A DNA stretch of 64,000 nt, taken from NCBI RefSeq assembly GCF_001886815.1, contig NZ_CP018099.1:1610501-1674500 (forward strand), in the 5' to 3' direction. This stretch comes from Caldithrix abyssi DSM 13497 (GTDB lineage Bacteria > Calditrichota > Calditrichia > Calditrichales > Calditrichaceae). Shown in pieces: positions 19,901 through 45,714 of this stretch (positions are counted from its first letter, which is position 1; each line of letters opens with the position of its first letter). The notes below the pieces were generated by a model that was not told where the DNA came from, searched no databases, and worked only from the letters and a program-made list of their open reading frames with translations. Made by a program: the position numbers and the translations under genes.

Positions 19901-22900
19901 CTTTCGGCCATGACCAGCGTCAGGTCGAATTTGGCCGTGCGTTCTTCGGCTTCTAACACTTCCAGACGAATGGTGGGAAATTCCATGCTCTGGCTGCCGG
20001 GCGGGGTGTTTTGCAGCACGAACATTACCTGAAAAAGCGGCGAATGGCTCATATCGCGTTCCGGCTGTAGCACCTCTACCAGTTGTTCGAACGGCAGATC
20101 CTGATGGGCGTAGGCGCCCAGGGTGGTTTCGCGCACCTGCGCCAGCAGTTCTTCAAAGGTGTTTACCAGATTAAAATCGGAGCGCAGCACCAGGGTGTTG
20201 ACAAAGAAGCCGATTAAATCTTCGGTGGCGCGGTAGTTGCGATTGGCAATGGGCGAACCGACCAGAATTTCGTCCTGATTGGCGTAGTGGTGCAACAGAG
20301 TTTGAAAGACGGCCAGCAAAGCCATGAAGGGCGTTACCGAGTACTGCTGCGCCAGGCGATTCAATTTTCCAGAGATGTCTTCAGGCAATTGACCGGCCAC
20401 CGCATCGCCGTTAAAGGTTTGCACCGGCGGGCGCGGATGATCCAGCGGCAGGTTTAACACCGGCGGATTAATACCGATCTTTTCTTTCCAGTAATTGAGC
20501 TGTTCTTGCAAAACATCGTCTTTAAGCCAGCTGCGTTGCCAGGCTGCAAAGTCGGCATATTGAATGGGCAACTCCGGCAGCGGCGAAGGCAGCCCCTTGC
20601 TGAACGCCTCGTAAAGCGCGCCCACTTCGCGCATGAACACGCTGGTGGACCAGCCGTCGGAGATGATGTGGTGCATGGTGAACATGAAAATAAAATCGTG
20701 TTCGGACAGTTTTACCAGTTGCAAACGGAACAGCGGCCAGCGATCCAGCTTAAACGGTTGCATGGCGTCCCGGTTCAGCAGCCGACGCACTTTTTCATCC
20801 CGATCGCTTTCGTTTTGCAGATCGATAATCGGCAGTTCGAAGGACACGTCATCCAGAATCTTTTGCGCCGGCTGACCGTTGTTGTTCACAAAAATGGTGC
20901 GCAACACTTCGTGACGACGGATGATTTCATTAACGGCCTTCTCTAATGCCTGAACATTAAGCTGGCCCTTAATGCGCACGGCGGCCGGAATGTTGTAAAA
21001 AGGGCTGTCCGGTGAAAGTTGATCTAAAAACCAGAGACGCTGCTGGGCAAATGAGAGCGGCAACTGGCCGCTGCGCGGCTGGCGCGTCAGCGGCGGTATT
21101 TTAACGCCTGTGGTTTGCAATCGTGCTTGCTCGATCTTTAAGGTGAGTTCGGCAATGGTCGGAGCCTCAAACAGATCTTTCAGCGGCAGTTCCACGCCAA
21201 AGGCCTCGCGAATGCGCGACATCAACTGCGTGGCCAGCAGCGAGTGCCCGCCCAGCTCAAAAAAGTTGTTGTGCACGCCCACCTGCGGCAGGTGTAAAAT
21301 TTCTTGCCAGATGCCGGCTAATATTTCTTCGTCCGGCGTGCGCGGCGCGACCCATTCTTCTTGTTTTTCACTCTGCGCGTAATCGGGACGGGGCAGGGCT
21401 TTGCGGTCGATTTTGCCGTTGGGCGTCAGCGGAAAACGTTCTAACAGCACAAACCAGCCGGGCACCATGTAATCGGGTAATCGTTCTTTTAAAAAGGCCC
21501 GTAAACTTGCCTCGTCAAAGGTCTCTTTGTCGGCGGGAATGATGTAAGCCACCAGACGCGGATCGTTGGCAAAATCGCTGCGCACTACCGCCACCGCGTC
21601 CTGCACCTGATCGTTTTCCTGCAAAACATTTTCGATTTCGCCCAGTTCGATGCGGTAACCGCGGATTTTAACCTGATGATCCACGCGGCCGATGAATTCT
21701 AATTGTCCATTTTTCAGGTAACGCACCAGGTCGCCGGTTTTGTAAAGGCGCGCGCCGGGCTCATTGGAGAAAGGATATGGAATAAAACGTTCGGCCGTCA
21801 GGTCCGGGCGCTTCAGGTAGCCGCGCGCCACGCCTATCCCGCCGATGTACAGTTCGCCGGGCACGCCAATGGGCGTTGGCTGCAGATGGTCGTCCAGTAC
21901 GTAAACGCGCGTGTTGAAGATGGCCTGTCCGATGGGCACAGAGCCGCTTCCGTGCCACTGGCGAGCTTCGAATACCACACAGCCGACCACGGTTTCGGTA
22001 GGACCGTACTCGTTAAACAGCAGAGTCTCCGGCGCGTGCTGCTGCCAGAACTCAATCTGGTCGGCGGTCAGGTTTTCGCCGCCAATGATGAAGGCGTGCG
22101 TTAAATCGGCCGCTTCGTGAGGCGGAATTTGCTTGCTCAATAGTTCCAGATGGGCCGGCGTTATCTTAATTAAACTGAAATTGCGGTAGCGCAGCAGGGC
22201 CTCTCCCAGGGCGTCGATTTCCGTGTCGTCCGGCAGCAGGTAAACCGTTTTGCCGGTAATAAGCGGCGAGTAGATGGCCGTTACCGTGGCGTCGAAGGCC
22301 AGGGTGGAATGCACCAGCGAACCGATTCCCTTTTGCACCGGATAGGTGGAAACGATCCAGTTAAGGTAGTTGGACAGTCCCTGATGGTGGATCAGCGTGC
22401 CCTTGGGGCGGCCGGTGGAACCGGAAGTGTAGATCACGTAACAAAGGTTTTGCGGTTCAATGGCCAGGCCAGGATTGGCCTCGCTGCCGGTGGCAATGGC
22501 CAGCCAGTCGGTGTCTATTTTGATGAGCGCCGCCTGATGAGCGGGTAATTTTACGGCGGACTGTTCGCTGGTAATGATCAGTTTTAGACCGGCGTCTTCA
22601 ATCATGAATTTAAGCCGTTCCTGCGGATAATTTACATCCAGCGGCACGTAAGCAGCGCCGGCTTTTAAAATGCCTAAAAGCGCCGCTAACATTTGCGGCG
22701 AGCGTTCCACAGCCACGCCGATCAGTTGATCGCGCTGTACGCCGCGCGCTAACAGATAATGGGCCAGTTGATTGGCGCGTTGATTGAGTTCGGCGTAAGT
22801 CCACCGCTGTCCTTCCATCTCCACGGCTATGGCCTCGGGGCTGGCGGCGGCCTGACGCTCGAACATGTCCACCACGGTGCCAGTGAGAACGGGCAGCGCC

Positions 22901-25900
22901 TGTTTGCCGTTCCAGGCTTCCAGCAGTAAACGTTTTTCTTCCGCAGGGAGGAAGTCAATACGGTCAACGGGCGTGTCGGGTTGTTGAACCAGCGCTTCGG
23001 CCAACCGCGTAAAGTGCCGCACAAAGCGCTCAATGGTGTCTTCGTCGAACAGATCGGTGTTGAATTCCAGCGCGCCGCTGAAGTGGTCGGCTTCTTCTAA
23101 CATAAAGAGCGTCATGTCGAATTTAGCGGTTTTGCTGTGCGCTTCGATGGGCTGCAGCTGCAGTTCGGAATGCGGCGCCTGCATTTCGGAGCGGCCAGAA
23201 GTTTGCAGCGCGAACATCACCTGAAAGATGGGGGAATGACTCAAATTACGTTCCGGCTGCAGGGCGTCGACCAACTTTTCAAATGGCAGATCCTGGTGGG
23301 CATAGGCGGCAAGGGCCGTTTCGCGTACCTGTTTGAGTAGCTGTAAAAAGGAAGGCCGATCTTCAAAACGCGTGCGGATGGCCAGCGTATTTACAAAAAA
23401 GCCGATCAGGTTTTCGATTTCCGGATGATTTCGATTGGCAATGGGCGTGCCGATGACGATGTCGTCCTGGCCAGAGTAGCGGTACAACATGGTTTGAAAC
23501 AACGCCAGCAGGGTCATGAATTCCGTGGCGCCTACTTTATGTGCCAGCTTTTTTAAAGCGCTGGATACTTCCGGCGACAGGTGGAAGGTTTTGTAAGAGC
23601 CGTTAAAGGTTTGCACGGCCGGACGCGGCCGATCAGTCGGCAGTTCCAGCACCGGCGGGGCGCCGGCTAATTGTTCTTTCCAGAATTCGATCTCTTTTTC
23701 CAGTACTTCGCCTTTTAACCAGTTACGTTGCCAGTAGGCGAAATCGGCGTATTGAATTTGCAGCGGCGGCAGGGGCGAATCGTCCCCGCGGCTAAAAGCG
23801 TCGTAAATGATGGCCATTTCGCGTAGCAAGACGTTGGTGGACCAATTGTCGCCGATGATGTGGTGCATGATTAAGATGATAACGTGTTCGTTGATGCCCG
23901 TGCGCACCAGCTCCAGGTGAAAGAGCGGCAGACGGTCAATGGCAATGGAACGCCAGGCCTGCTCGTTAACCAGACGTTCCACTTCGGCCTGGCGCTCGGC
24001 AGGGGGCAAATGCGTTAAATCGGTAACGGGAATTTTTACTTCAAACGGTTCGTGAATGACCTGCGCGGGTTCGCCGTCGCGGTTGTGGAAGGTAGTGCGC
24101 AGCGCCTCGTGACGCTTAATCACCTCGTTCAGGCTGCGTTGCAACACGTCCACTTTAAGGGGCCCGACAATGCGGTAGGTCTCCGGTAAATTGTAAAAGG
24201 GGCTGTCCGGCTCGAGCTGGGCCAGAAACCACAGACGCTGCTGGGCAAAAGAGAGCGGCAGCTCCTGATCGCGGCTGACCGGCACGATGGGCGGTATTTG
24301 AATGCCCTCGCTGGCCAGCTTTTGTTGATCGATGGCCATGGCCAGGCCGCCGACGGTTGGTTTTTCAAAAACGTGGCGCAACGGCAAATCGATGCCAAAA
24401 CGTTCTTTAATGCGCGAAACCAGCTGCGTGGCCAGCAGAGAGTGTCCGCCTAATTCGAAGAAATTGTGGTTCGATCCCACTTTTTCCACCGACAGCAGTT
24501 GACTGTAAATTTCCGCCAGAACTTCTTCGGTTGGCGTGCGCGGCGCCTCGTATTCCATTTCGATGGTTTCCAGCAAAAGCTTTTGATCCGGTCGGGGAAG
24601 GGCGCGGCGATTGACCTTGCCGTTGGGCGTTAGAGGCATCTCTTCCAGCTCCACAAAAGCGGAAGGCACCATGTACTCCGGCAAACGATCCAGCAGAAAA
24701 TGGCGTAGTTCTTTGTTGGTCAGCGACTTTCCGGCGGCGGGCACAAAGTAGCCGATCAATTTTTTGTCGCCTGGCGTGTCTTCGCGCAGCACAACCGCGG
24801 CGCTCTGGATGTCCGGATGCTCGTTCAGGGCCGTTTCGATTTCGCCCAGTTCCACTCGGAAGCCGCGAATTTTAACCTGATCGTCGGCGCGCCCTAAAAA
24901 TTCAATGTTGCCGTCCGGCAGGTAGCGGGCCACATCGCCGGTTTTGTACATGCGCGCGCCGGGCTGGCTGCTGAAGGGATCGGGTAAAAAGCGCTCGGCG
25001 GTTAAATCGGGACGGTTAAAGTAGCCGCGGGCCAGCCCCATGCCGCCCACGTACAATTCGCCGCGTACGCCAATGGGCACGGGTTGTAAAAATTCGTCTA
25101 AAATATAAACAGTCATGTTTTCGAAGGGTTTGCCAATGGGCACCAGCCGGTCGCCGGGCATGTTCAGTTCCCGGCTTTCAAAATAGGTGCTGTCGATGGT
25201 GGCTTCGGTCAGACCGAATGAGTTGATTAGCCGTGTTTCAGGACCGGTAAAGCCTAAAAACTTTTTATACTCGCTGACGTACCAGATGTCGGAGCCGGCG
25301 ATCAAATTGCGGAAAAAGTCCAGCTTCTGGTTGGTTTCTTCCAGGTACTGGATTAAATTGCGCAGCACGGCCGGCACAAACTCGGCAATGGTAACCTGTT
25401 GGCTACGCATCAGATCGTAAAGTTCGGCTGCTTCCAGTAAAATTTCGCGCGGCGTAAGCACCAGTTTTCCGCCGGAACAAAGTCCGCGCGTCCAGTCGCC
25501 GGAGAATACGTCAAAGGAAAAACTGGCCATTTGCAAGTGCGAACGCGCCCGGGTGCGCAGTTCGTAGGCTGTTTCCCAGGCCAGATAGGCGTTAACCAGC
25601 GAGCGATGTTGAATCATGGTTCCTTTTGCTTTGCCGGTAGAGCCCGAAGTGTAAATCATGTAAACCAGATTTTCCGGCGTAACCGGAAAAGCCGGGTTGT
25701 CATCCGGCAATTGGGTAAATTGTGCCCGGTCTTCGTCCATTAAAAGGACGCGCCCCTCAAAGTGGGGAAGCAGGTCTTTTAAACTACTCTGGGTGATTAA
25801 AAAGGTAACGCCGGCGTCTTCTAACATGTAGTTAAGCCGCTCTTCCGGGTAAGAAGGATCAAGCGGCAAATAGGCGCCGCCGGCCTTAAGTACGCCAAGC

Positions 25901-27549
25901 ACGGCCACCAGCAGATGAGCCTGACGCTCGAGCATCACGCCCACCACGGTTTCCGGACGAACGCCCTGTCGGTGCAGCAGACGCGCCAGTTGGTTGGCCT
26001 GCCTGTTGAGCTGGTCGTAGGTCAGCGTCTGATCGGGCGCCACCACAGCCGGAGCGTCTGGCGTTTCGGCCGCTCTTTTTTCAAACAGATGGTGAATGCA
26101 AAGGTGCGGATCGCGGGGCGCCTGGGTGGCGTTCCATTCCACTAAAATGCGCTGCCGTTCGTCCGGCGCAAGAAAGTTCACATTCAGCACACGCTGCTCA
26201 GGATCTTCCACCAGCGCTTCGCACAATTGTTTAAAATGGCGTCCCAAGCGCTGAATGGTGGAGCGGTCAAACAGGTCGGTGTTGTATTCGATGTCGACGA
26301 TCAGGCCGCTGCTGCCTTCTGTAATGGAAAAGGTCAAATCGTGTGTGGAAGTGCCCATGTCCACGTCAATCTGTTCAAAGGAAATATCTCCCACGCGCGT
26401 GCCTTTCATGGGCGCGTTTTGCAGAATGAGCATCACCTGAAACAGGGGCGGGTAGCTCATGTCTCGCGCGGGCTGCAGGGCGTCAACCAGATACTCGAAA
26501 GGCAAATCCTGATGATCGTAAGCGTTTAAGGTAATGTTTTTTTCGCGTTGCAAAAATTCGCGAAAGGTGGGGTTGTCGTCCAGGCGGCTGCGCAACACCA
26601 GGGTATTGATGAACAGTCCGATCAGCGGTTCGATTTCTGCACGGTTGCGATTGGCAATGGGCGTGCCAATGCTGATGTCTTTTTGGCCGGAGTAGCGGGC
26701 TAATAGCGTTTTTAAAGCCGCGGAAAGCACCATGAACAGAGTGCCGCCTTCGCGCCGCGCCAGTTGATTCAGTTTGTTGGTCAATTCAGCCGGAAAGATC
26801 ACGCGTTCCGACGAACCGACGTTCGATTGAATTTGCGGTCGCGGTCGGTCGGTCGGTAATTCTAAGGGGGGGGGATTGTCGCCCAATTGCTCTTTCCAGA
26901 ATTGGAGTTGTTCCTCCAGAACTTCGCCCTGTAAATATTCTCGTTGCCATTCGGCAAAGTCGGCGTATTGAATTTCCAGTTCGGGCAGGGGATTGGGCAA
27001 TCCCTGACTGAAGGCGGCGTATATGGCCGTGATTTCTTTGACCAGCACGCCGATCGACCAGCCGTCGGAAATGATGTGGTGCATGGTGATCAGTACCACA
27101 TGGTCGTTTTCGCCGGCTTTCAGAATTTTTACGCGGAACAACGGCCCTTTGGCCAGATCAAAGGGCGTGCGCGCCTCGACCGTGGCCAGTCGTTTAATTT
27201 CCGCGTCTTTTTTGTCTGCGGCAAGGGATGTCAGGTCGACCAGAGGAATTTCCAGCTTCATCTCCGGATGGATGATTTGCATGGGCTCGCCGTTTTGCGC
27301 CCAGAAAGTGGTGCGTAAAATTTCGTGGCGCTCGATGATTTCGTTAATGACCTTTTTAAAAATTTGCACATCAAAGGCCCCGCGCACGCGAATGGCCAGC
27401 GGAATGTTGTAATATGGACTGCCAGGCTCAAACTGATCTAAAAACCAGAAACGACGCTGCCCGAAGGAAGAAGGAAACACGTAAACTTCGTCTTCGTCAA
27501 AAGGCGTTGAATCGAATGCTTCAAATTCTGTAGTCTGGTCAACGGACAT
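13999..27549 (-). CDS. NRPS, four modules plus thioesterase (C-A-PCP)x4-TE; terminal synthetase
   Basis: This 4516-residue protein is the last synthetase of the line. Condensation domains begin near 22, 1095, 2160 and 3213. Carrier serines (GGHS) lie near 1036, 2102, 3155 and 4212. The thioesterase starts near 4275, with Ser about 4343 in 'ISSWSLGV', an Asp in 'LQLDQGPD' and a His in 'VPGDHISML'. Adenylation pockets read by hand against GrsA are DVGEIGSIDK (an exact ornithine code), DATKIGEVGK (Asn/Asp-like), DASTIAAVCK (Tyr-like) and DAETTAGVCK (aromatic-like, unresolved). The second condensation motif is HHIIGDNW instead of HHxxxDG. The N-terminus is acidic ('DSTPFDEDEVY') and may dock with the basic tail of the preceding synthetase. 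The start has AAGGAAAG seven bases upstream. The thioesterase releases the peptide; hydrolysis or cyclisation cannot be told. Confidence 0.97.
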   Translation of the reverse strand: MSVDQTTEFEAFDSTPFDEDEVYVFPSSFGQRRFWFLDQFEPGSPYYNIPLAIRVRGAFDVQIFKKVINEIIERHEILRTTFWAQNGEPMQIIHPEMKLEIPLVDLTSLAADKKDAEIKRLATVEARTPFDLAKGPLFRVKILKAGENDHVVLITMHHIISDGWSIGVLVKEITAIYAAFSQGLPNPLPELEIQYADFAEWQREYLQGEVLEEQLQFWKEQLGDNPPPLELPTDRPRPQIQSNVGSSERVIFPAELTNKLNQLARREGGTLFMVLSAALKTLLARYSGQKDISIGTPIANRNRAEIEPLIGLFINTLVLRSRLDDNPTFREFLQREKNITLNAYDHQDLPFEYLVDALQPARDMSYPPLFQVMLILQNAPMKGTRVGDISFEQIDVDMGTSTHDLTFSITEGSSGLIVDIEYNTDLFDRSTIQRLGRHFKQLCEALVEDPEQRVLNVNFLAPDERQRILVEWNATQAPRDPHLCIHHLFEKRAAETPDAPAVVAPDQTLTYDQLNRQANQLARLLHRQGVRPETVVGVMLERQAHLLVAVLGVLKAGGAYLPLDPSYPEERLNYMLEDAGVTFLITQSSLKDLLPHFEGRVLLMDEDRAQFTQLPDDNPAFPVTPENLVYMIYTSGSTGKAKGTMIQHRSLVNAYLAWETAYELRTRARSHLQMASFSFDVFSGDWTRGLCSGGKLVLTPREILLEAAELYDLMRSQQVTIAEFVPAVLRNLIQYLEETNQKLDFFRNLIAGSDIWYVSEYKKFLGFTGPETRLINSFGLTEATIDSTYFESRELNMPGDRLVPIGKPFENMTVYILDEFLQPVPIGVRGELYVGGMGLARGYFNRPDLTAERFLPDPFSSQPGARMYKTGDVARYLPDGNIEFLGRADDQVKIRGFRVELGEIETALNEHPDIQSAAVVLREDTPGDKKLIGYFVPAAGKSLTNKELRHFLLDRLPEYMVPSAFVELEEMPLTPNGKVNRRALPRPDQKLLLETIEMEYEAPRTPTEEVLAEIYSQLLSVEKVGSNHNFFELGGHSLLATQLVSRIKERFGIDLPLRHVFEKPTVGGLAMAIDQQKLASEGIQIPPIVPVSRDQELPLSFAQQRLWFLAQLEPDSPFYNLPETYRIVGPLKVDVLQRSLNEVIKRHEALRTTFHNRDGEPAQVIHEPFEVKIPVTDLTHLPPAERQAEVERLVNEQAWRSIAIDRLPLFHLELVRTGINEHVIILIMHHIIGDNWSTNVLLREMAIIYDAFSRGDDSPLPPLQIQYADFAYWQRNWLKGEVLEKEIEFWKEQLAGAPPVLELPTDRPRPAVQTFNGSYKTFHLSPEVSSALKKLAHKVGATEFMTLLALFQTMLYRYSGQDDIVIGTPIANRNHPEIENLIGFFVNTLAIRTRFEDRPSFLQLLKQVRETALAAYAHQDLPFEKLVDALQPERNLSHSPIFQVMFALQTSGRSEMQAPHSELQLQPIEAHSKTAKFDMTLFMLEEADHFSGALEFNTDLFDEDTIERFVRHFTRLAEALVQQPDTPVDRIDFLPAEEKRLLLEAWNGKQALPVLTGTVVDMFERQAAASPEAIAVEMEGQRWTYAELNQRANQLAHYLLARGVQRDQLIGVAVERSPQMLAALLGILKAGAAYVPLDVNYPQERLKFMIEDAGLKLIITSEQSAVKLPAHQAALIKIDTDWLAIATGSEANPGLAIEPQNLCYVIYTSGSTGRPKGTLIHHQGLSNYLNWIVSTYPVQKGIGSLVHSTLAFDATVTAIYSPLITGKTVYLLPDDTEIDALGEALLRYRNFSLIKITPAHLELLSKQIPPHEAADLTHAFIIGGENLTADQIEFWQQHAPETLLFNEYGPTETVVGCVVFEARQWHGSGSVPIGQAIFNTRVYVLDDHLQPTPIGVPGELYIGGIGVARGYLKRPDLTAERFIPYPFSNEPGARLYKTGDLVRYLKNGQLEFIGRVDHQVKIRGYRIELGEIENVLQENDQVQDAVAVVRSDFANDPRLVAYIIPADKETFDEASLRAFLKERLPDYMVPGWFVLLERFPLTPNGKIDRKALPRPDYAQSEKQEEWVAPRTPDEEILAGIWQEILHLPQVGVHNNFFELGGHSLLATQLMSRIREAFGVELPLKDLFEAPTIAELTLKIEQARLQTTGVKIPPLTRQPRSGQLPLSFAQQRLWFLDQLSPDSPFYNIPAAVRIKGQLNVQALEKAVNEIIRRHEVLRTIFVNNNGQPAQKILDDVSFELPIIDLQNESDRDEKVRRLLNRDAMQPFKLDRWPLFRLQLVKLSEHDFIFMFTMHHIISDGWSTSVFMREVGALYEAFSKGLPSPLPELPIQYADFAAWQRSWLKDDVLQEQLNYWKEKIGINPPVLNLPLDHPRPPVQTFNGDAVAGQLPEDISGKLNRLAQQYSVTPFMALLAVFQTLLHHYANQDEILVGSPIANRNYRATEDLIGFFVNTLVLRSDFNLVNTFEELLAQVRETTLGAYAHQDLPFEQLVEVLQPERDMSHSPLFQVMFVLQNTPPGSQSMEFPTIRLEVLEAEERTAKFDLTLVMAESPEGYFYEFEYNTDLFEKSTIERMARHFEILLKQLVEKPAQPLARLELVSGQEKKQIVEEWNQTDAALPEQAVIQALFEQTVEQFAGRPALVYKDQTLTFKALNEKANRLAHYLRARGIKVEIPVAISVERSPEMVIGLLAILKAGGVYLPVDPAYPPERIAYIVQDARPPLLLTQEKLKPLFEAYDVQILTFEALEKELAGQPSENPPIINEAENLAYMIYTSGSTGQPKGAMLAHCGLVNLTLEQIKDFALQPESRVLQFASFSFDASVSEIFTTLVSGAALYLIDRDEMLDVAKAINRYQISVITLPPSVSSLINPQEVPSLKTLISAGEACSVQLAQKWHKHLRFLNAYGPTENTVCASRYFVTEKPKGSAVPIGRPIGNVELYILNKEMMVLPVGVPGELYIGGVNLARGYLNRPDLTAERFVPHPFARKPGQRLYKTGDLARFLPDGNIEFLGRIDFQVKIRGFRIELEEIENVLMQHPQVEDAVVLVREDQPGQKLLAAYCVASGEEEPDAEALKAFCKKSLPDYMTPQAILFLEAFPLTPNGKIDRRALPAPDYEALQAEKYVAPRTSEEEALAAIFAGILNLEKVSVTESFFNLGGHSLLATQLASRIRDEFNVEIPLISIFENPTVAQLVTVIEEQRLKQKGPQLPPFKRIPRDQDIPLSFAQQRLWFLDQLAPDNATYNIPTALKISGRFNLPVFEKTLNFLVERHETLRTTFANKNGTPVQVIKETLSIKPAVVDLTHLPEKEREREALRLATEDAMEPFDLEIGPLFRVKVLKLADDQHVVLFNMHHIISDGWSVSILIREFAQVYESYLKEMIPPLPDLPIQYADFAVWQREWLSGDVLQEQIDYWKSTIGLNPEPLNLPTDFPRPAVQTFNGSSLDRLYPKELLERLKAFSRENGATLFMTLLAAFEALLHRYSGQDSILVGSPIANRRQTELENLIGFFVNNLVLKGEFDDDPDFVTLLQRVRKNTLEAYAHQDLPFENLVEILQPERDMSHAPIFQVMFVMQNTPVQPVQLSDVRLEPIIPEQKIAKYDLSLVVMETEDGLFAEFEYNTDLFRKETIERLHNHFQKLLEDVLQSPQKPVSTLSLITEQELKLFTREWNRIPSEPPLDVCIQTLFEQRAARTPDKTAVVYENERLTFEQLNIRANRLAHYLREIGVGPEKIVAISLERGQQMIISLLAVLKAGGAYLPIDPEYPSDRLNYMLKDSRAKWLITSQQLKEKFSDFSGQLIIQEEIESVLKAKPADNPQIVNRPQNLAYIIYTSGSTGRPKGVMLQHRGLVNLVFSLGGFYGVNAQSRTLQFASFSFDASVEEIFNTLINGATLYLIDRQTLLSGTGLVNALKSYKITNVTLPPSLLNVLNPQDFPHLKNITSAGEACTPEIANKWAQGRRFVNGYGPTENTVCATVYNVEEPLKGNTVPIGHPIHNVQVYVLNRAMIHQPIGVPGELYIGGPGLARGYLNRPDLTAERFVPNPFSEKPGERLYRTGDLVRFLPDGNLEFLGRIDKQVKIRGFRVELGEIEAAIRQHKGVKGAAVNAVKTTTNETALAAYLLVEEREKFDLAALKQEIKKILPDYMVPAAFILLDEFPLTPNGKINYRALPVPQFDQSGEVKQTVKARNTLEARLVDIWKEVLGVTTIGVTDSFFELGGHSLLAMKLLTAVEQKLGKDVNLVSFFREPTIEHMARLIEEDAPFESGATLVKLKSGDDRQPLFFVHPSGGSVHHYAELAKLLKTHRSVYGIQAQGLDGKMPLHQTVEDMASAYIQTIKQKQPHGPYLISSWSLGVIIVHEMARQFKAMGDEVALVLQLDQGPDVTYEKPADNAEMLVNMFKRYFKLDIDYLRTLDEASQFKFVIKKAKKHKVIPRFVRLNDFKRYILVNETQIMAWVNYRQKPYEGEIVLLRSEENAKADPPDLGWAKMVQKVRIIDVPGDHISMLLQPHVQIVADKIDRLLKDL

Positions 27550-27583: not shown

Positions 27584-27654
27584 TAGCCCTCATCCCCAAC
27601 CCCTTCTCCCAAAGATTGGGAGAAGGGGCAATTAAGGTCAAGGCATTGCGTAAA
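27584..27654. repeat. Palindromic intergenic repeat, copy 1
   Basis: This copy has 13-bp complementary arms (27600-27612 and 27616-27628, CCCCTTCTCCCAA / TTGGGAGAAGGGG) around a tiny loop, preceded by TAGCCCTCATCCCCAA. A conserved tail runs into AAGGCATTGCGTAAA. It lies 35 bases upstream of the terminal NRPS start. The 633-base stretch 27550-28182 holds four such units and no other gene. Confidence 0.9.
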
Positions 27655-27712
27655 AGGTAACGATTCTTTTCGTTGAGCGAAATTCCTGCTCACTTTATCA
27701 GGTTTTTTTATT

Positions 27713-27784
27713 TAGCCCTCATCCCCAACCTCTTCTCCCAGAAACTGGGAGAAGGGGCAAATTAGATCAAGGCATTGCGCAAAA
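27713..27784. repeat. Palindromic intergenic repeat, copy 2
   Basis: Same unit as copy 1 with compensating changes around the loop (TCTCCCAG / CTGGGAGA) and one change in the left arm. The tail GATCAAGGCATTGCGCAAA is conserved and is followed by an ACTGAACGAAATCTTTTCC block shared with later copies. Confidence 0.88.
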
Positions 27785-27909
27785 CTAAAGTTTTTATTTA
27801 CTGAACGAAATCTTTTCCTCCTTAACCACTCGGTGGTGGCAAAAACTGTTTTTAATCTATGGCGCTCCATTTTTCATGCCAAACTACTTTGTGGAGTTGT
27901 TTCTCTTTT

Positions 27910-27980
27910 TAGCCCTCATCCCCAACCCCTTCTCCCAAAGATTGGGAGAAGGGGCAATTAAGGTCAAGGCATTGCGTAAA
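27910..27980. repeat. Palindromic intergenic repeat, copy 3
   Basis: Identical to copy 1 through the hairpin and the GTCAAGGCATTGCGTAAA tail (about 70 bases). It is followed by TTGAACGAGATCTTTTCC, so the repeated unit is longer than the hairpin, about 110 bases. Confidence 0.9.
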
Positions 27981-28014
27981 GTTGTAAAGTTTGCCCTCCT
28001 TGAACGAGATCTTT

Positions 28015-28100
28015 TCCCCCTCTCCCACTTTGTGTGGGGGAGGGGGATTAAGGGGGTGGGGGCAAATTTCGGGCAATTTAATCAAAGCATTGCGTAAAAT
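28015..28100. repeat. Palindromic intergenic repeat, copy 4 (variant hairpin)
   Basis: The hairpin core differs (CCCCCTCTCCCAC, then GTGGGGGAGGGGG), but the downstream tail (AAAGCATTGCGTAAAATTCAAAG, then CCTTGAACGAAA) matches the other copies. It is a diverged member of the family. Confidence 0.75.
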
Positions 28101-28182
28101 TCAAAGTTTTCCCTTGAACGAAACTCTTTCCCAATTTGTTGGATTGTTACCGAATTTAAGTAACACGCCTTAAAAACTTTAA

Positions 28183-28572
28183 CTAATCTTTCGTCTTGAA
28201 AAGACATTCTTCTATTTTATTGAAAACCTCATCAATATTGTTAAGTATTTCTTCATTTTTAAATCTTAGTATTTTAAACTGTTTTAATTGGATTATTTCT
28301 TTTCTATGTTTATCGTATTCTTTTTGTTTTTCGTGAATTCCCCCGTCAATTTCAATGATCAGTTTGGCTTTTGGGCAAATGAAATCGCAGATAAAAAATT
28401 TCTGCCTTTGATTATATTCGTAAAAGACTGGCTTTTGTCGTCTGAATTTCAGTCCTTTAAAATTTTTATTTCTTACATGTTGCCAAAAAATTTTTTCAGC
28501 ATCAGTTTGATTCTTTCTCAAATGTCTTGCTGTTTGTAAAGCCAATTTTCTGACTTCGGGTTTAATTCTCAT
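28183..28572 (-). CDS. DUF559-type (Vsr-like) endonuclease-domain protein inside the repeat cluster
   Basis: With the ATG at 28572 the protein is 129 residues and begins 'MRIKPEVRKLALQTARHLRK'. Longer readings to 28581 or 28719 only translate repeat DNA ('LAPSPNFWEKGLG'). The body matches DUF559: 'RHLRKNQTDAEKIFWQHVRN', 'KFRRQKPVFYEY', 'FICDFICPKAKLIIEIDGG', 'YDKHRKEIIQLKQFKILRF'. The Asp and the E-x-D pair in the third block are the likely PD-(D/E)xK metal ligands, related to very-short-patch repair nucleases. Its coding sequence starts exactly at the edge of repeat copy 5 and ends about 80 bases from copy 4. Codon use looks more AT-rich than the flanking NRPS genes. It has no evident role in peptide synthesis; a link to repeat mobility is inference. 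Confidence 0.85.
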   Translation of the reverse strand: MRIKPEVRKLALQTARHLRKNQTDAEKIFWQHVRNKNFKGLKFRRQKPVFYEYNQRQKFFICDFICPKAKLIIEIDGGIHEKQKEYDKHRKEIIQLKQFKILRFKNEEILNNIDEVFNKIEECLFKTKD

Positions 28573-28642
28573 AGCCCTCATCCCCAACCCCTTCTCCCAA
28601 AAATTGGGAGAAGGGGCAAGTAAGGTCAAGGCATTGTGTAAA
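28572..28642. repeat. Palindromic intergenic repeat, copy 5
   Basis: TAGCCCTCATCCCCAACCCC, then TTCTCCCAA / TTGGGAGAAGGGG arms and the tail GGTCAAGGCATTGTGTAAA. It abuts the ATG of the DUF559 gene, so the gene's leader is repeat sequence. Confidence 0.9.
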
Positions 28643-28675
28643 GTCGTAAGTTTTCCCACTTTGGACGAATTTATT

Positions 28676-28714
28676 TCCCTCTCTCCCACTTTGTGGGGAT
28701 TAAGGGGGCGGGGA
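28676..28714. repeat. Palindromic intergenic repeat, copy 6 (partial)
   Basis: A shortened variant like copy 4 (CCCTCTCTCCCACTTTGTGG, then GATTAAGGGGGCGGGG). It ends eight bases from the stop codon of the NRPS gene that ends at 28722. Confidence 0.65.
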
Positions 28715-28721
28715 AACACCC

Positions 28722-31700
28722 CTACCGCAGTTGATCCTTCTTCATTTTTCTTCTCTCTCTGGCCACACGCTTAATCTGCGGCGCGGCTTTGGCCGGTTGT
28801 TGTTTTGCTTTTTCCACCTCTTCGGCCAGCCCTGCAACGGTCGGTTTTTCAAACAGTTTGATTAACGGCATTTCAACGCCAAAGGTTGTGCGCAGTCGCG
28901 ACATAAATTGCGTGGCCAGTAGCGAATGGCCGCCCAGTTCAAAAAAGTTGTCGTGGATGCCCACTTTTTCGATATTCAGCAGTTCGCCGACAATTTGCGT
29001 CAATTTTTCTTCCACATCGTTACGCGGCGCAATGTATTCCGCCTGAACGGCCGAACGATCCAATTGCGGTTTGGGCAGCGCCCTGCGGTCGATTTTGCCG
29101 TTGGGCGTTAGCGGCATGGCATCCAGAAAAACATAAGCCGAAGGCACCATGTAGTCAGGCAGTTCTTTACTTATCTGATCGCGAATCTGACTGATTTCGG
29201 GCTGAGGTTCATCGCACACCAGATAGGCCACCAATCGTTTGTCTCCGGGAATGTCTTCGCGAGCCATGACCACCACATCTTTAACCTGCGGCACTTCGCG
29301 CAGTACGGCTTCGATTTCGCCCAGTTCGATGCGGAAACCGCGTACCTTCACCTGCAAGTCGATGCGTCCTAAAAATTGGATGTTGCCGTCTTCCTGGTAG
29401 CGAACCAGATCGCCGGTGCGGTACAGGCGGTCGCCCTGTCGTCCGCTGAAGGGATCAGGCACAAATTTTTCAGCAGTGAGGTCGGCGCGGTTTAGATAAC
29501 CGCGCGCCAGACCAACACCGCCAACGCATAGTTCCCCGGGAACTCCCACAGGGACAGGTAGCAAGTTTTGATCCAGTATGTAAAGTTCAAAGTTGCCAAT
29601 GGGTTTGCCGATCGGCGGATCATTTTCCTGCGCCGGATCGGCATTGTACATGGAAGCGCAAACCGTGGTTTCGGTCGGCCCGTAGGCGTTGACGAACTGA
29701 CGCCCCACGCCCCAGATTTTGACCAGCTCCTGCGGACACTTTTCACCGGCGGTAATGATGGTTTTCAACGCCGGCAGTGGTTCGTGCGGAAAAACGGCCA
29801 GAACCGAAGGCGGCAGGGTAACGGTGGTTACCTCTTTTTCTTTCATCTTTTGCACCAGCAAATCGCCGGATGCCAGAATCTGGCGGTCAACCAGGATCAA
29901 TGCCGCGCCGTTTAGCAGGGCCATCACGGTCTCCCAGACAGAGGCGTCAAAGCTCAGTGACGAAAACTGCAGAATGCGGCTTTGCGCAGTAATGTTAAAG
30001 GCCTTACGCTGTTCGTTAGCAAGATTCAACAATCCGCGATGGGGCAGCAGAGTACCCTTGGGTTTGCCGGTTGAGCCCGAGGTATAAATCACATACGCCA
30101 GATTCAAGGGCGTGGTAATGTTCGGAAGATTTTCTTCCGGCTGAGGTTCAATTTGCGCCCATTGACTGTCTAAGGCCAGGGTCTGCGCCCCAAAGTTTTG
30201 CAATCGCTCCTGCAAGGGCTGTTGGGTCAGCACGATTTTAAGTTGCGAATCGTGGATCATGTACTGCAGGCGTTCGTCCGGATAGGCCGGGTCGAGCGGT
30301 AAAAAGGCTGCACCCGCTTTAAGGGCGGCCATGATGCCCACGATCATCTCCAGCGAACGTTCCAGGCAAATGCCCACACGATCGTCCGGTTTGATGTTTA
30401 ATGCGCGCAGGTAGTGGGCCAGCTTATTGGCCTTGCGGTTTAGTTCTTCGTAAGAGAGTGTTTGACCGTTGTGTTCCACGGCCAGTAATTGGGGCTGCTC
30501 CTGCGCCCATTGCTCAAACTTTTGATGCGCGCACAAATGGCGGTCAAACGGCGTTGCTGTCTGATTCCAGTCGTGCAGCAAGGTTTTCAGTTCGTCTTCG
30601 GAAAGATAATTGATTAAATCGATCGGTTGATCCGCATCTTCGGTTACGGCGCGTAAAAAGTTGAGCAGGTGCTGTTGCATGCGTCGGATGGTCGATTCTT
30701 TGAACAGGTCGGTATTGAATTCAAAATCGAAATTGAAATGGTCGCCCGCTTCGGTAACGATCAAACTCAGGTCAAACTTGGCCGAACCGGCTTCTTCTTC
30801 GGCCGAACGCATGGTCAGGCCGGGCAATTCAAAGCGCGCTTCCGGTAGGTTTTGCATGACGAACATCACCTGAAAGAGCGGCGAATGACTCATCTCGCGT
30901 TTGGTGACCAGCGCATCCACAATCTGTTCAAACGGCACGTTCTGATGGGCGTAAGCGTTCAGCGTGTTTTCACGGATTTGCTGCAGCAGTTCGCTAAATT
31001 CCAGCCGTTCGCTGAAATCGCCTTTAATGACGATGTTGTTGACGAAAAAGCCAATGAGTTTTTCCGTTTCTGAACGATTACGATTGGCGATGGGCGAACC
31101 CACCAGAATTTCATCCTGTCGGCTGTAGCGGTGCAGCAGCGACTGAAAGGCGGCCAGCAGGGTCATGAACACGGTTACATTGTTTTCCCGGCTAAGTTCT
31201 TTAATCTTTTGCGAAAGCTGCGGATCAACTTTAACAGAAATGGTTTTGCCGTTAAAGGTTTGCACGGCCGGACGCGGGAAATCGGTTGGCAGTTCCAGAA
31301 CAGGCGGATCCATGCCCAGGGTTTGTTTCCAGAAATCCAGTTCCTTTTGCAGTGTTTCGCCCTTTAACCAGTTTTGCTGCCACACGGCGTAATCCACGTA
31401 CTGAATTTCCAGCTCCGGCAGACGCGCTTCTTTGCCTTCCACAATGTGTTTGTAAAAAGTGGCAATTTCTTGCATAAAGATGCCCATGGACCAGCCGTCG
31501 GAGATGATGTGGTGCATGGTTAATAAAATAACGTGCTCCTGTTCGTTCAGGCGGATCAACTGCGCGCGGAACAGGGGACCGGTTTTTAAATCAAAGGGTT
31601 TGCGATTTTCTTCCAGCGTCAATTTTTTAAGCTGCTGCTTTTGCTCTTCTTCGGGCAGTCCGCTCAAATCGGTGACCGGCAGTTTAACCGGCTGCGCTTC

Positions 31701-34700
31701 ATGGATGACTACAAACGGTTTGCCGTTTTCGTCGTCAAAGGTGGTGCGCAGGGTTTCGTGGCGTCGCACCACCTCGCTCAAACTTTTTTCCAGCGCTTCC
31801 ACGTTCAAATCGCCAATCAGGCGTACGGCGCCCGGAATGTTGTAAAAGGAGCTGCCTGGTTGTAGCTGATCCAAAAACCACAGACGCTGCTGCGCAAAAG
31901 AGAGCGGCAACTTTCCGCTGCGGTCGGCCTTTTCGATGGGCGGCGCCTGCAACTGGCCTTCGCCGGCCTTGTACGCCTGCAGGCGCATGGAAAGCTGGCG
32001 CACGGTGGGAAAGGCAAAAATCTCCTTTAAAGGAATTTCCACATCAAAGGCATCGCGAATTCTGGAAACCAGTTGTGTGGCCAGTAAAGAATGTCCGCCC
32101 AGATCGAAAAAGTTGCTGCTTACGCCGACGCGCTCGACTTTTAAGATATCTTCCCAGATGGAAGCCAGTAATTCTTCTTCCGGCGTGGAGGGCGCCACGT
32201 ATTCTTGAGCAATGCGGTCGGCCTCTTCCGGATCGGGCAGAGCGCGGCGATTAACTTTACCGTTGGGCGTTAACGGGAATTTCTCCATCTGCACATAAGC
32301 GGCCGGCGTCATGTATTCCGGCAAATGACCTTTGATGAATTCATGAATTTCACTGCCGTCAACGGACTGGCCTTCTTCCGGAACAAAGTAGGCGACCAGG
32401 TATTTGTCGTCGGGATTGTTGCCTCTGGCCGTTACCACGGCATCCTTAACCGCCGGGTGTTTGAGAATCTGGGCTTCAATTTCGCCTAATTCAATACGAA
32501 AGCCGCGAATTTTAACCTGGAAATCGACGCGCCCGATGAATTCGATCTGTCCGTCTGGCAGGTAGCGGGCCAGATCGCCCGTTTTGTACAGCCGCGCGCC
32601 CGGCTCGCTGCTAAAAGGATCGGGTATGAATTTTTCTGCCGTTAAGTCGGGACGGCTCCAATAGCCGCGTGAAACTCCGGCGCCGCCGATGTGAATTTCG
32701 CCGGGAACCCCAACCGGAACCGGTTTGAGTCGAGCGTCTAACAGGTAAATTTTGGCGTTGGCGATGGGCCTTCCGATGGGCGCGCTTACCGTATCGTTTT
32801 CATGCCGCTCATCCACCGTTCCCCAGATGGCGCCGATTGTGCCTTCTGTTGGGCCGTAACCGTTAACAAAATGGAATTTGTTTTTGAAGCGTCTGGCCAG
32901 CTCCCAGGGGCAAACGTCGCCGACTGAGATGATGGTTTCTATGGATTGCAGGCGCTCTTCGGGCAGTAAGGTTAACAGCGAAGGCGGAAAGGTGGCGGTT
33001 GTCACGCGTTTGCGGTTTAAAAAATCGACCAGTTTATCGATGGAAAGCAGCGTTTCCCGCTCGATCATTTGCACGGTTGCGCCGCCGGTCAGGGCGGAAA
33101 AAATCTCGCTGGCGGCCGCGTCAAAACTAAACGATGCTATTTGCAACATGGTCTTGCCCGGACCGAGATTAAAATCGGTTACCATGTTTTGCAAGAAGTT
33201 GATCATGCCGCGATGCTGCAGCATCACGCCCTTCGGCTTGCCGGTAGAGCCGGAGGTGTAAATAATGAACGCCAGATTTTGCGGCGCATTCACATGTTCC
33301 GGATTATCTGTGGGCTGCGCTTCGATTTGCGCTTTGTCTTTCCACAATGAGATGAGTTGCAGATTTTGTTTTGAGAAGCGGTCAAACAGGCCGTCTTCTG
33401 TAATTAACAGGCGGATACCGGAATCTTCAATCATGTAATCGATGCGTTCCTGCGGATAGTCGGGATCGATGGGCAGGTAAGCGCCGCCCGATTTTAAAAC
33501 AGCCAGGGCGGCAATGACCGTTTCCAACGAACGGTTGAGAGAAATACCCACAATGGTTTCGGGTTTAACGCCTTTCTGCCGCAGAAAGTGGGCCAGTTGA
33601 TTGGCCTTTTGATTAAGCTGCTGGTAAGTCAGCGTTTGATCCTGGAAATCAACGGCAATGGCCTGCGGCTGTTTGGCGGCCTGCGCTTCAAAAAGCTGCT
33701 GGATGGTTTTGTCCTGCGGAAAGGGCTTTTTCGTTCCGCTCCACTCGTTTAAAAGTTTTTCCTTTTCCCGGGCGTTGACCAGCTCAATATCGGCCAGTGT
33801 TTGTTGCGGATTAAAGACGATCTGTTCCATCACGCGTTCAAAATGATCGTGCAAACGTTCGATGGTTTGCCGATCAAAGCGATTGGCGTCGTAGGCGATG
33901 TCCAGCGTTAAAGTCTGTCCCGGCGCCGTAACAATGGTCAATGGGTAATTTGTCTTTTCGACGGATCGGACATCTTTAATTTGCAAAGAAGCGCTGGATT
34001 GCGAAAGAGTCTCGCTTACAGGGTAGTTTTCAAAAACCAGTAGCGCTTCAAACAAGGGCTGGGCGCCGGGAACGTCGCTCCATTTGTGGATGTTGACCAG
34101 CGGCGTGTATTCGTATTGGCGCATTTCCGCGTTTTGTAACTGCAGAGTCTGGAGCCAGTCTTTAACTTTTACTTGCTCGTCGATTTGAACGCGGATGGGA
34201 AGCGTGTTAATAAACAACCCGACCATGCCTTCGATGCCGGGAATTTCCGTTGGCCGGCCAGATACCGTGGAGCCGAAAAGCACATCGTTCTCAGAACTGT
34301 ATCGGGCAAGAATGAGCGCCAGCGCGCCCTGAAACAGGGTGTTGAGCGTAACCTGATATTCTCTGGTAAACTGTTCCGCCCGGGCGGAGAGCTCTTTGCC
34401 GTACTCTCTTCTTATTTTGGGGTATTCATTGCCAGGTCGGTCGGTTTTGCGATCGACCACCAGCGGGGTGGGCGCGTAAAAGCCGGCCAGTTTTTTTCGC
34501 CAGAAGGCTTCGGCCTTTTGCATGTCCTGCGCTTTTAACCAGGCGATGTAATCGCGGAAAGGCCGGGCTGCAGGCAGGTGTACCGCTTGATTTTTTTCGT
34601 AACCTTCATAAAGCTGAAATAGCTCTTTTAAGATAATGGCAAAGCCCCAGCCGTCAAAGAGCAGGTGGTGGTGACTCCAGAGAAAGAAGACTTCGTTTTC

Positions 34701-35093
34701 GTTTAAACGGATCAATTTTATGCGCATCAGGGGCGCTTCGTTCAGATCAAATCCCTTTTGACGCTCCGTGTCGATTAGCGCGTCGATTTGAGCCTTTTGT
34801 TGATCTTTGGGCAGGTTGCTCCAATCCTGCACGTCAAAGGGCAGCTCAACTTCGTGATAAACGACCTGCAGGGGCTCTTCCAGGTCTTCCCAGACAAACG
34901 CGCTGCGCAGTACATCGTGCCTTTGCAGTAAGGCATCCCAGGCCTTTTTAAATGCCTCGATATTCAAATTGCCCACAAACGTGCAGGCCAGCTGTTCGGT
35001 GTAAACTTCGCTTTCTGGAGCAAAAAGCGTGTGAAACAGCATTCCTTGCTGCATAGGAGAAAGCGGGTAGATGTCTTTAATGTTTTCGCTCAT
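28722..35093 (-). CDS. NRPS, two modules C-A-PCP-C-A-PCP
   Basis: The protein is about 2123 residues. I prefer the ATG at 35093 because AAGGA sits 11 bases upstream; the ATG at 35105 has AAAGG directly against it. It opens with 'IKDIYPLSPMQQGMLFH', the acceptor/condensation type that follows a synthetase ending in an epimerase, with active site 'HHHLLFDGWG'. Carrier serines lie near 1001 and 2056 and the second condensation domain begins near 1062. Hand-read pockets are DASTIVGIGK (no match I know) and DAWTIAAVCK (Phe). It ends in a strongly basic tail ('RVARERRKMKKDQLR') that may dock with the acidic N-terminus of the four-module synthetase. It has no epimerase or thioesterase. It acts after the synthetase encoded at 37249-45147. 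Confidence 0.96.
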   Translation of the reverse strand: MSENIKDIYPLSPMQQGMLFHTLFAPESEVYTEQLACTFVGNLNIEAFKKAWDALLQRHDVLRSAFVWEDLEEPLQVVYHEVELPFDVQDWSNLPKDQQKAQIDALIDTERQKGFDLNEAPLMRIKLIRLNENEVFFLWSHHHLLFDGWGFAIILKELFQLYEGYEKNQAVHLPAARPFRDYIAWLKAQDMQKAEAFWRKKLAGFYAPTPLVVDRKTDRPGNEYPKIRREYGKELSARAEQFTREYQVTLNTLFQGALALILARYSSENDVLFGSTVSGRPTEIPGIEGMVGLFINTLPIRVQIDEQVKVKDWLQTLQLQNAEMRQYEYTPLVNIHKWSDVPGAQPLFEALLVFENYPVSETLSQSSASLQIKDVRSVEKTNYPLTIVTAPGQTLTLDIAYDANRFDRQTIERLHDHFERVMEQIVFNPQQTLADIELVNAREKEKLLNEWSGTKKPFPQDKTIQQLFEAQAAKQPQAIAVDFQDQTLTYQQLNQKANQLAHFLRQKGVKPETIVGISLNRSLETVIAALAVLKSGGAYLPIDPDYPQERIDYMIEDSGIRLLITEDGLFDRFSKQNLQLISLWKDKAQIEAQPTDNPEHVNAPQNLAFIIYTSGSTGKPKGVMLQHRGMINFLQNMVTDFNLGPGKTMLQIASFSFDAAASEIFSALTGGATVQMIERETLLSIDKLVDFLNRKRVTTATFPPSLLTLLPEERLQSIETIISVGDVCPWELARRFKNKFHFVNGYGPTEGTIGAIWGTVDERHENDTVSAPIGRPIANAKIYLLDARLKPVPVGVPGEIHIGGAGVSRGYWSRPDLTAEKFIPDPFSSEPGARLYKTGDLARYLPDGQIEFIGRVDFQVKIRGFRIELGEIEAQILKHPAVKDAVVTARGNNPDDKYLVAYFVPEEGQSVDGSEIHEFIKGHLPEYMTPAAYVQMEKFPLTPNGKVNRRALPDPEEADRIAQEYVAPSTPEEELLASIWEDILKVERVGVSSNFFDLGGHSLLATQLVSRIRDAFDVEIPLKEIFAFPTVRQLSMRLQAYKAGEGQLQAPPIEKADRSGKLPLSFAQQRLWFLDQLQPGSSFYNIPGAVRLIGDLNVEALEKSLSEVVRRHETLRTTFDDENGKPFVVIHEAQPVKLPVTDLSGLPEEEQKQQLKKLTLEENRKPFDLKTGPLFRAQLIRLNEQEHVILLTMHHIISDGWSMGIFMQEIATFYKHIVEGKEARLPELEIQYVDYAVWQQNWLKGETLQKELDFWKQTLGMDPPVLELPTDFPRPAVQTFNGKTISVKVDPQLSQKIKELSRENNVTVFMTLLAAFQSLLHRYSRQDEILVGSPIANRNRSETEKLIGFFVNNIVIKGDFSERLEFSELLQQIRENTLNAYAHQNVPFEQIVDALVTKREMSHSPLFQVMFVMQNLPEARFELPGLTMRSAEEEAGSAKFDLSLIVTEAGDHFNFDFEFNTDLFKESTIRRMQQHLLNFLRAVTEDADQPIDLINYLSEDELKTLLHDWNQTATPFDRHLCAHQKFEQWAQEQPQLLAVEHNGQTLSYEELNRKANKLAHYLRALNIKPDDRVGICLERSLEMIVGIMAALKAGAAFLPLDPAYPDERLQYMIHDSQLKIVLTQQPLQERLQNFGAQTLALDSQWAQIEPQPEENLPNITTPLNLAYVIYTSGSTGKPKGTLLPHRGLLNLANEQRKAFNITAQSRILQFSSLSFDASVWETVMALLNGAALILVDRQILASGDLLVQKMKEKEVTTVTLPPSVLAVFPHEPLPALKTIITAGEKCPQELVKIWGVGRQFVNAYGPTETTVCASMYNADPAQENDPPIGKPIGNFELYILDQNLLPVPVGVPGELCVGGVGLARGYLNRADLTAEKFVPDPFSGRQGDRLYRTGDLVRYQEDGNIQFLGRIDLQVKVRGFRIELGEIEAVLREVPQVKDVVVMAREDIPGDKRLVAYLVCDEPQPEISQIRDQISKELPDYMVPSAYVFLDAMPLTPNGKIDRRALPKPQLDRSAVQAEYIAPRNDVEEKLTQIVGELLNIEKVGIHDNFFELGGHSLLATQFMSRLRTTFGVEMPLIKLFEKPTVAGLAEEVEKAKQQPAKAAPQIKRVARERRKMKKDQLR

Positions 35094-35131
35094 CTGAACT
35101 GCCATCCTTTTTTTCAGAATATTTATGTTAA

Positions 35132-45147: not shown

Positions 45148-45168
45148 GGTTTTCCTTAATAAATTAAA

Positions 45169-45193
45169 AATTACGAATTACGAATTACGAATT
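45169..45193. repeat. Left inverted repeat of the four-helix-bundle cassette
   Basis: 25 bases (AATTACG repeated three times, then AATT), a 7-bp-period direct repeat that is the exact reverse complement of 45677-45701. It lies 22 bases upstream of the NRPS start codon at 45147. Confidence 0.85.
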
Positions 45194-45282
45194 TTTCCGA
45201 TTCTTCAGGTAATTCAATCCACCAAAATAATATTACATTATTTTTAAATTCCAGGGCATTTTAAAAAACATTTCCCTTTGTG

Positions 45283-45639
45283 TTAAAGTTTTTTTTGTAT
45301 TGTTAATTGAATAGAACCTAAAATCCGTAATAATTCATCGCAATCTTCGAGTAATTGTTTAGCCGTCTCTGCATTTAGATAACCACTGTCTCGCAATAGT
45401 CGAATCCAGTAGTGGGTCTCTCTGCTTTCTTTGTAAGCAATTGAAAGTTTGGCATAAAAATCTTTTTTTGATTGGCCCCCAATTGCTTCTTCAATATTGG
45501 CCCCTATTGATGTTCCGCTTCTTAATAGTTGTTTAGAAAGTAAAAATTCTCTTTTCTCCTCTTGAAGAAATTTGTAAATGTTAATAATCTTTAATGCGAA
45601 CTGGTAACTTTTATTACGAATTAAATTATTCTCTTTCAT
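45283..45639 (-). CDS. Four-helix-bundle protein (S23/IVP family)
   Basis: This 118-residue protein is recognisable by 'KSYQFALKIINIYKFLQ', 'LLSKQLLRSGTSIGANIEEA' and 'YKESRETHYWIRLLRDSGYL', the hallmark segments of the four-helix-bundle family. That family was named from ORFs in 23S rRNA intervening sequences and is related to Avd, the accessory protein of diversity-generating retroelements. Family members are widespread and mostly of unknown function. There is no rRNA gene or reverse transcriptase in this window. The gene is bounded by exact 25-bp inverted repeats and fills the gap between two NRPS genes, so it looks like an inserted small cassette. AGG lies about ten bases before the ATG. 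Downstream, 45194-45282 is AT-rich without a clear terminator. Confidence 0.88.
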   Translation of the reverse strand: MKENNLIRNKSYQFALKIINIYKFLQEEKREFLLSKQLLRSGTSIGANIEEAIGGQSKKDFYAKLSIAYKESRETHYWIRLLRDSGYLNAETAKQLLEDCDELLRILGSIQLTIQKKL

Positions 45640-45676
45640 GTTTAAATACCTACTTTTACACTGAATTCAAAATCGT

Positions 45677-45701
45677 AATTCGTAATTCGTAATTCGTAAT
45701 T
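45677..45701. repeat. Right inverted repeat of the four-helix-bundle cassette
   Basis: 25 bases (AATTCGT repeated three times, then AATT), the exact reverse complement of 45169-45193; an imperfect extra unit precedes it. It lies 13 bases past the stop codon of the NRPS gene that ends at 45715. The two repeats delimit a 533-bp cassette. Confidence 0.85.
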
Positions 45702-45714
45702 TAAATTGAACGCT

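Follow-up and report, generated by a model that had tools for sequence, protein, structure and literature searches.

The window, the whole 64,000-nucleotide stretch that was analysed (G000:C1:1610501-1674500), carries very large minus-strand NRPS genes. Between two of them lies a cassette at 27587-28713. One NRPS gene (13999-27549, minus strand, a 4516-aa ORF) starts downstream of the cassette, and the other (28722-35105, minus strand, a 2127-aa ORF) ends just upstream of it; both are given as context only. The single gene of the cassette (28183-28572, minus strand) encodes a 129-aa nuclease of the PD-(D/E)XK, EDxHD-like type. The protein belongs to DUF559 (Pfam PF04480; E=1.4e-33), scoring 115.5 bits where the curated cut-off is 20.6. 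Two bases separate its ATG (28572-28570) from a repeat copy; an alternative in-frame ATG (28581-28579) lies within the repeat tag. The gene is located in neither an intron nor an intein.

Two of the repeat units at this locus are complete. They have a doublet architecture of 140-150 bp in which tag, hairpin, spacer, hairpin and tag follow one another in inverted arrangement. The doublet at 27913-28062 (plus strand) consists of tag CCCTCATCCCC, a hairpin at 27926-27954, a spacer of about 60 nt that reads AAGGCATTGCGTAAA...TTGAACGA, a second hairpin at 28016-28046 and the inverted tag GGGGGTGGGGG at 28052-28062. Its fold had a z-score of -5.9, and 0 of 200 shuffles were equally stable. The doublet upstream of the gene (28575-28713, plus strand) is more degenerate, with a tag at 28575-28585, a hairpin at 28588-28616, a spacer, a second hairpin and a tag at 28704-28713. 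Two truncated units on the plus strand, at 27587-27700 (tag 27587-27597, hairpin 27600-27628, spacer) and 27716-27826 (tag, hairpin 27729-27757, spacer), have lost the second hairpin. Alignment of the copies revealed a spacer-only fragment downstream of the gene at about 28071-28150 (plus strand). Stem and tag of the window unit read GGGAGAAGGGG-TT-GGGGATGAGGG.

An earlier sequence-only reading had placed repeats on both sides of a DUF559 gene whose ATG abuts one copy, and the unit positions (27587, 27716, 27913 and 28575) confirmed this. It had counted at least four good and two variant copies; the analysis gave four units and the spacer-only fragment. The unit of about 110 bp that it described is real, but is part of the larger doublet, and what it called the tail is the spacer. 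Its description of the repeat as dispersed did not hold for the exact unit, whose pattern had 4 matches in the 4.98-Mb genome, all within the cassette region; a 153-nt DNA search of the genome gave only weak matches outside the cassette. It is a generic relative of the unit (GAGAGGGG-N-AGGGGGTGAG) that is dispersed, with 31 exact copies. The genome also contains dispersed hairpin families of the form CCCCCTCTCCCAGA...TCTGGGAGAGGGGG plus GGGGGTGAGGG (for example in L017-L028 and L033-L040), with no DUF559 gene in the stretches read. Elsewhere in the window, at 45160-45703, 35-nt AT-rich inverted arms (AAATTACGAATTACGAATTACGAATT) lie ~470 nt apart and possibly belong to a MITE.

BoxC, PIT and the intrastrand triplex motif (TM) are one and the same repeat (Holder et al. 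2015, PMC4666352), with the E. coli TM consensus CCCTCNCCC-N3-6-GGGNGAGGG-N3-GGGNGAGGG (PMC4666352). In 117 units, the third block agreed with the purine arm under the G-G, A-A/T code at 82% of positions (0.822), versus 52% (0.523) and at most 60% when tags were shuffled among units. On 12 distinct stem types, the triplex code gave 50/60 versus 32.6 expected (p=5e-5). Stems vary by family (CCCCTCTCCC, CCCCTTCTCTT, CCCCTCCCT, CCCCCTT), and the tag changes in step. This match of G-rich tag and stem under the triplex code places the units at DUF559 loci, judged by their letters, in the BoxC/PIT/TM class. Triplex formation itself is inferred. It has been demonstrated for the E. coli motif only, and in vitro; Holder et al. 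detected a stable triplex neither in vivo nor in duplex DNA (PMC4666352). In E. coli, the DUF559 gene is ycjD, and it adjoins the triplex motif at 1,351,204. The repeat next to ycjD in locus L156 is identical in sequence to the published motif TMECO no. 9 (PMC4666352 Table 1; MG1655 1,351,204-1,351,239). The TM repeat is found at a median of 19 places per E. coli genome. BoxC/TM copy number varies widely among the E. coli strains listed, from 15-31 in many to 3 in an ST131 strain.

A hairpin that abuts a start codon could be a regulatory element, either a terminator or a translation control of the DUF559 gene, and the G-rich tag next to the ATG could be a Shine-Dalgarno sequence. This view is opposed by the presence of units on both sides of the gene, in tandem, in reading frames and far from the gene, and by the published absence of promoter and terminator activity of the motif (PMC4666352). 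As the sole role of the units we consider it very improbable. The plain terminator idea was dropped altogether, given units on either side of the gene and within reading frames and the published finding that the motif lacks terminator activity.

Twelve residues are invariant over 35 diverse DUF559 members, D63, E74, D76 and H80 among them. An AlphaFold model of the window protein (pLDDT 85) matched, in this order, 3hrl (DUF559, N. gonorrhoeae), 3r3p (the I-Bth0305I homing endonuclease) and then PvuRts1I/AbaSI. Homology to I-Bth0305I was supported by a profile search (E=0.002) and by Foldseek (probability 1.00, E=2.3e-3). According to the predicted model, I-Bth0305I is the nearest functional fold of the window protein. 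The Vsr-like fold suggested from the sequence alone was correct as to the PD-(D/E)XK superfamily; by fold matches, the protein is better described as I-Bth0305I/PvuRts1I-like, and E. coli Vsr was not among the best fold matches listed.

To survey other DUF559 genes, 50 loci from the phylum of the window were fetched with flanks of up to 10 kb, and hairpins with C4/G4 arms were scored. DUF559 was present in 30 of 40 genomes of the phylum, often in several copies per genome and often decayed. Hairpin density was 4.5/kb within 125 bp of the gene, 1.4/kb at 125-250 bp and 0.19/kb at 3-10 kb. The enrichment within 125 bp was ~20-fold, and the background level was reached beyond about 1 kb. When only non-ORF DNA was considered, the densities were 3.86 versus 0.51/kb (7.5-fold). 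ParE, a small accessory gene, was used as control in the same genomes; a hairpin was found within 300 bp of 43 of 50 DUF559 loci versus 3 of 30 ParE loci (Fisher p=9e-12). By the unit criterion, 57 of 66 loci from this phylum and further phyla were positive, as were nine further loci from Alphaproteobacteria/Deinococcus (9/9, with a ten-fold density contrast), giving 66 of 75 chromosomal or plasmid loci in at least eight phyla. C-rich palindromes were present at every inspected DUF559 locus of Cyanobacteria, Proteobacteria, Deinococcota, Bacteroidetes, Cloacimonadota, WOR-1, Saganbacteria and Ignavibacteria. Phage-borne DUF559 relatives, identified in a viral-contig scan with a narrower DUF559 subfamily, had units in 0 of 20 cases.

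DUF559 genes and hairpin units are systematically associated; we regard this as near certain. The sequence-only reading had asked whether other DUF559 genes are flanked by such repeats, and the 66 loci with C-rich hairpin units show that they are. It would have been refuted by repeats with no enrichment near DUF559 genes or by relatives of the gene lying far from repeats, and the ~20-fold enrichment and the 66/75 loci at which relatives adjoin units contradict both. The association could still be one of chance or composition if G/C-rich hairpins were simply common between genes, and such hairpins do also occur without DUF559 in these genomes. That cause was refuted by the ParE, phage and intergenic controls, by the decay of hairpin density with distance and by replication of the association in independent records, and it retains negligible weight.

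Tags of the flanking units pointed toward the gene in 45 cases, away from it in 25 and both ways in 15, with direct pairs being common, as in the window. The split of 45 versus 25 indicates that there is no strict terminal-inverted-repeat rule. Copy number of a unit type differed greatly among genomes. There were only two copies in G020, one on either side of its DUF559 gene, 36 dispersed copies in G022, and 58 copies of one unit type in G010, in which DUF559 was not detected (genome ~89% complete). Whether one unit type goes with one DUF559 cluster at the level of genomes was also examined; the result was unconvincing, and no such association is claimed. At locus L102 (G034:C2), the DUF559 gene lies between long near-identical direct repeats (alignment score 155) with two hairpins each.

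In a Mantel test run on units only, between loci of different genomes, unit similarity rose with DUF559 protein similarity (r=0.294, p=0.0005, permutation maximum 0.140). The DUF559 subfamily of the KPIDNYIVDFYC type had mostly CCCCCTT...AAGGGGG-nTA-GGGGGTTGT and variants, and the subfamily with a long insert (..FFIADFYC..) had longer stems and tags such as GGGGATGAG or GGGGGTGAG. The sequence of the unit demonstrably tracks the DUF559 subfamily.

PF04480 detected two further loci in the window genome. The DUF559 gene at 3774873-3775216 is frameshifted and close to purF, and a six-copy tandem array of 173-bp repeats with a different C-rich palindrome lies downstream of it. At 4109113-4109418, the DUF559 domain lies inside an intein-like (Hint) protein, the intein assignment being below the Pfam cut-off; at the 5' end, the N-terminal stretch of this protein is an in-frame array of translated palindromic CCCCCTTAATCCCCCCGCTTGCGGGG-type repeats. 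All three DUF559 genes of this genome are thus linked to a palindrome family of their own. In another member of the genus (L106, G003:C240), a DUF559 gene with 51% aa identity is found just upstream of an NRPS start. Its palindrome family differs from that of the window, and a shared locus and repeated insertion are both possible.

The comparison of empty and occupied sites, which the sequence-only reading had proposed for related strains, yielded three pairs, all between diverged species, in which gene and repeats were absent together. Three restriction-modification genes carry repeat-DUF559-repeat in frame, and their homologues are uninterrupted and without repeats. The hsdR genes of L094 and L097 contain an in-frame cassette, which in L094 reads TTCCCCTCC-hairpin-...-GGGGTGGT / DUF559 / ACCACCCC-...-GGAGGGGAA; hsdR of G003, from the same genus as the window genome, is uninterrupted and has no such unit. 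A Pseudanabaena methyltransferase carries an in-frame cassette with a repeat doublet on each side. Its homologues in Aulosira and Azospirillum are uninterrupted; at the junction in Pseudanabaena, some twelve host residues are changed or lacking. The third pair, the methyltransferases of G026 and G029, has only 42% identity. The joint absence of gene and repeats indicates a cassette with its own ends, not one homing into existing repeats. All of these pairs compare diverged species, so that for any one of them taken singly the empty side may instead have lost its cassette. No target-site duplication was seen in the occupied/empty pairs, among which only diverged pairs were compared.

Elsewhere, DUF559 genes lie in or beside normally compact housekeeping operons, namely between transhydrogenase subunit genes (L226), between a GatB/YqeY-domain gene and dnaG (L229), and between paaD and paaZ (L230), and several lie beside or inside restriction-modification or PglX genes. 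Mobility of the cassette is likely on these comparisons, which are of sequence alone. A separate 30-nt palindrome (CCGCCTGCGCGTGGAAGCACGCGGGCAGG), of a gene-less type, is in frame in hsdR of L094 and absent from that of L097. E. coli ycjD was also considered as an empty site and rejected: the inspected genomes without ycjD carry the eefRABCD operon there, which points to a swap and not to a clean empty site.

DUF559 may be a passenger or homing gene that inserts into, or rides along with, repeats spread by replication slippage, recombination or another enzyme. The repeat-rich genome in which no DUF559 was detected (G010), the orphan families dispersed in the window genome and the kinship to homing endonucleases are compatible with a passenger. 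In the empty hosts the repeats are missing along with the gene, indicating that both arrived together, and the unit tracks the DUF559 subfamily; these two observations make a passenger unlikely in our judgment, though not dismissible. The protein may also be a host repair or defence nuclease that acts on triplex or mismatched/modified DNA, with the repeats as by-product or sensor. That DUF559 proteins can be active in vivo is known from Caulobacter, where cells lacking the ScmA methylase need the DUF559 protein VsrA for their SOS response; its authors tie VsrA to cytosine methylation (PMC12907096). Fold similarity to PvuRts1I/AbaSI and the proximity of several DUF559 genes to restriction-modification or PglX genes would also suit a host function. 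Such a function is decidedly unlikely: in-frame cassettes, several decayed copies per genome, a patchy distribution and insertion in unrelated operons look selfish.

We favor the interpretation that 27587-28713 is a mobile cassette composed of a lone DUF559 nuclease gene and intrastrand-triplex palindromes (BoxC/PIT/TM), the nuclease's own role being inferred (probability roughly 0.6). DUF559 cassettes would on this view be selfish elements, comparable to RAYTs with their REPs but of unrelated chemistry. Mobilization of triplex repeats by the nuclease is an inference, as none of the DUF559 proteins has been shown to cut a unit. Once single-stranded, a unit would form a hairpin to which the G-rich tag contributes the third strand. 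The nuclease would recognize the unit, folded or duplex, and cut at or beside it, and repair or recombination would then place the whole cassette, or just the repeat, in new positions. Repeats without a gene would stand to the cassette as REPs do to RAYTs, as its non-autonomous derivatives, and the upstream unit may also supply a ribosome-binding site. Against the mobile-cassette interpretation stand, besides the lack of demonstrated cutting, that the exact unit of the window is not dispersed, that G010 has its 58 copies without a detected DUF559, that the diverged pairs revealed no target-site duplication and the Pseudanabaena junction has altered or lost host residues, that orientation is not strict, that Holder et al. 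saw no stable triplex outside their in vitro single-strand setting, and that VsrA is linked by its authors to cytosine methylation.

It is conceivable, with a little less than even confidence, that DUF559 proteins are dedicated mobility enzymes of BoxC/PIT/TM repeats across bacteria, which would recognize the folded triplex or hairpin, cut there, and spread both their own gene and gene-less repeats, also in frame through host genes. YcjD activity would in that case underlie the BoxC-linked genome instability of E. coli. No report of a link between DUF559 and triplex repeats was found in the open-licence literature; earlier reports elsewhere are not excluded. The pairing suggests an unrecognized kind of mobile element. 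It provides a specific candidate enzyme for BoxC/TM repeats, for which a relative of solved structure (3hrl) and, in K-12, the gene ycjD are at hand. If the interpretation is true, it describes a type of mobile element built from triplex-forming ends and a single nuclease of restriction fold. It would then also suggest how palindromes may come to be inserted in frame in proteins, and would give a role to many proteins annotated only as 'endonuclease domain-containing'.

The units share with the published BoxC/PIT/TM motifs a C-rich arm, loop, G-rich arm, short spacer and third purine-type block, and both include inverted pairs. For the published motifs, no mobility function was ever found nearby (PMC4666352), whereas a DUF559 nuclease gene is the constant neighbor here; the window family is, in addition, local and not dispersed. 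EDxHD homing endonucleases (I-Bth0305I; PMC3943268) are nearest in predicted functional fold. An intein of Thermosynechococcus has previously been described with DUF559 (PMC9403480), and one copy of the window genome (4109113) is in an intein-like protein. The cassettes differ in being neither introns nor inteins and in having their own palindromic ends, which are absent from empty sites. Vsr and Caulobacter VsrA, the latter a DUF559 protein (PMC12907096), share the PD-(D/E)XK superfamily; however, no methyltransferase adjoins the window gene, whose immediate neighbors are NRPS genes. Rickettsia palindromic elements (RPE; PMC2229807) are likewise palindromes of ~100-150 bp found in frame in protein genes, with an unknown mobility mechanism (no sequence comparison was made). 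RPEs have no known partner gene, and the units here are C/G-run palindromes with a putative triplex tag.

The parallel with REP elements and their RAYT transposase, drawn by the sequence-only reading, proved apt as an analogy but not as membership. RAYT is an HUH (Y1) tyrosine transposase, whereas the window gene has only DUF559, of the PD-(D/E)XK fold. REPs have a GTAG/GTGG head, and the units here carry a G-run tag such as GGGGATGAGGG, the presumed triplex third strand. Two inverted flanking repeats are not constant here (45 toward, 25 away, 15 both). The two systems nevertheless resemble each other (REP/REPIN-RAYT; PMC2817692) in a nuclease gene flanked by hairpins with conserved tags, in inverted doublets, in dispersed copies without the gene, and in a repeat sequence that tracks the enzyme (Mantel r=0.294).
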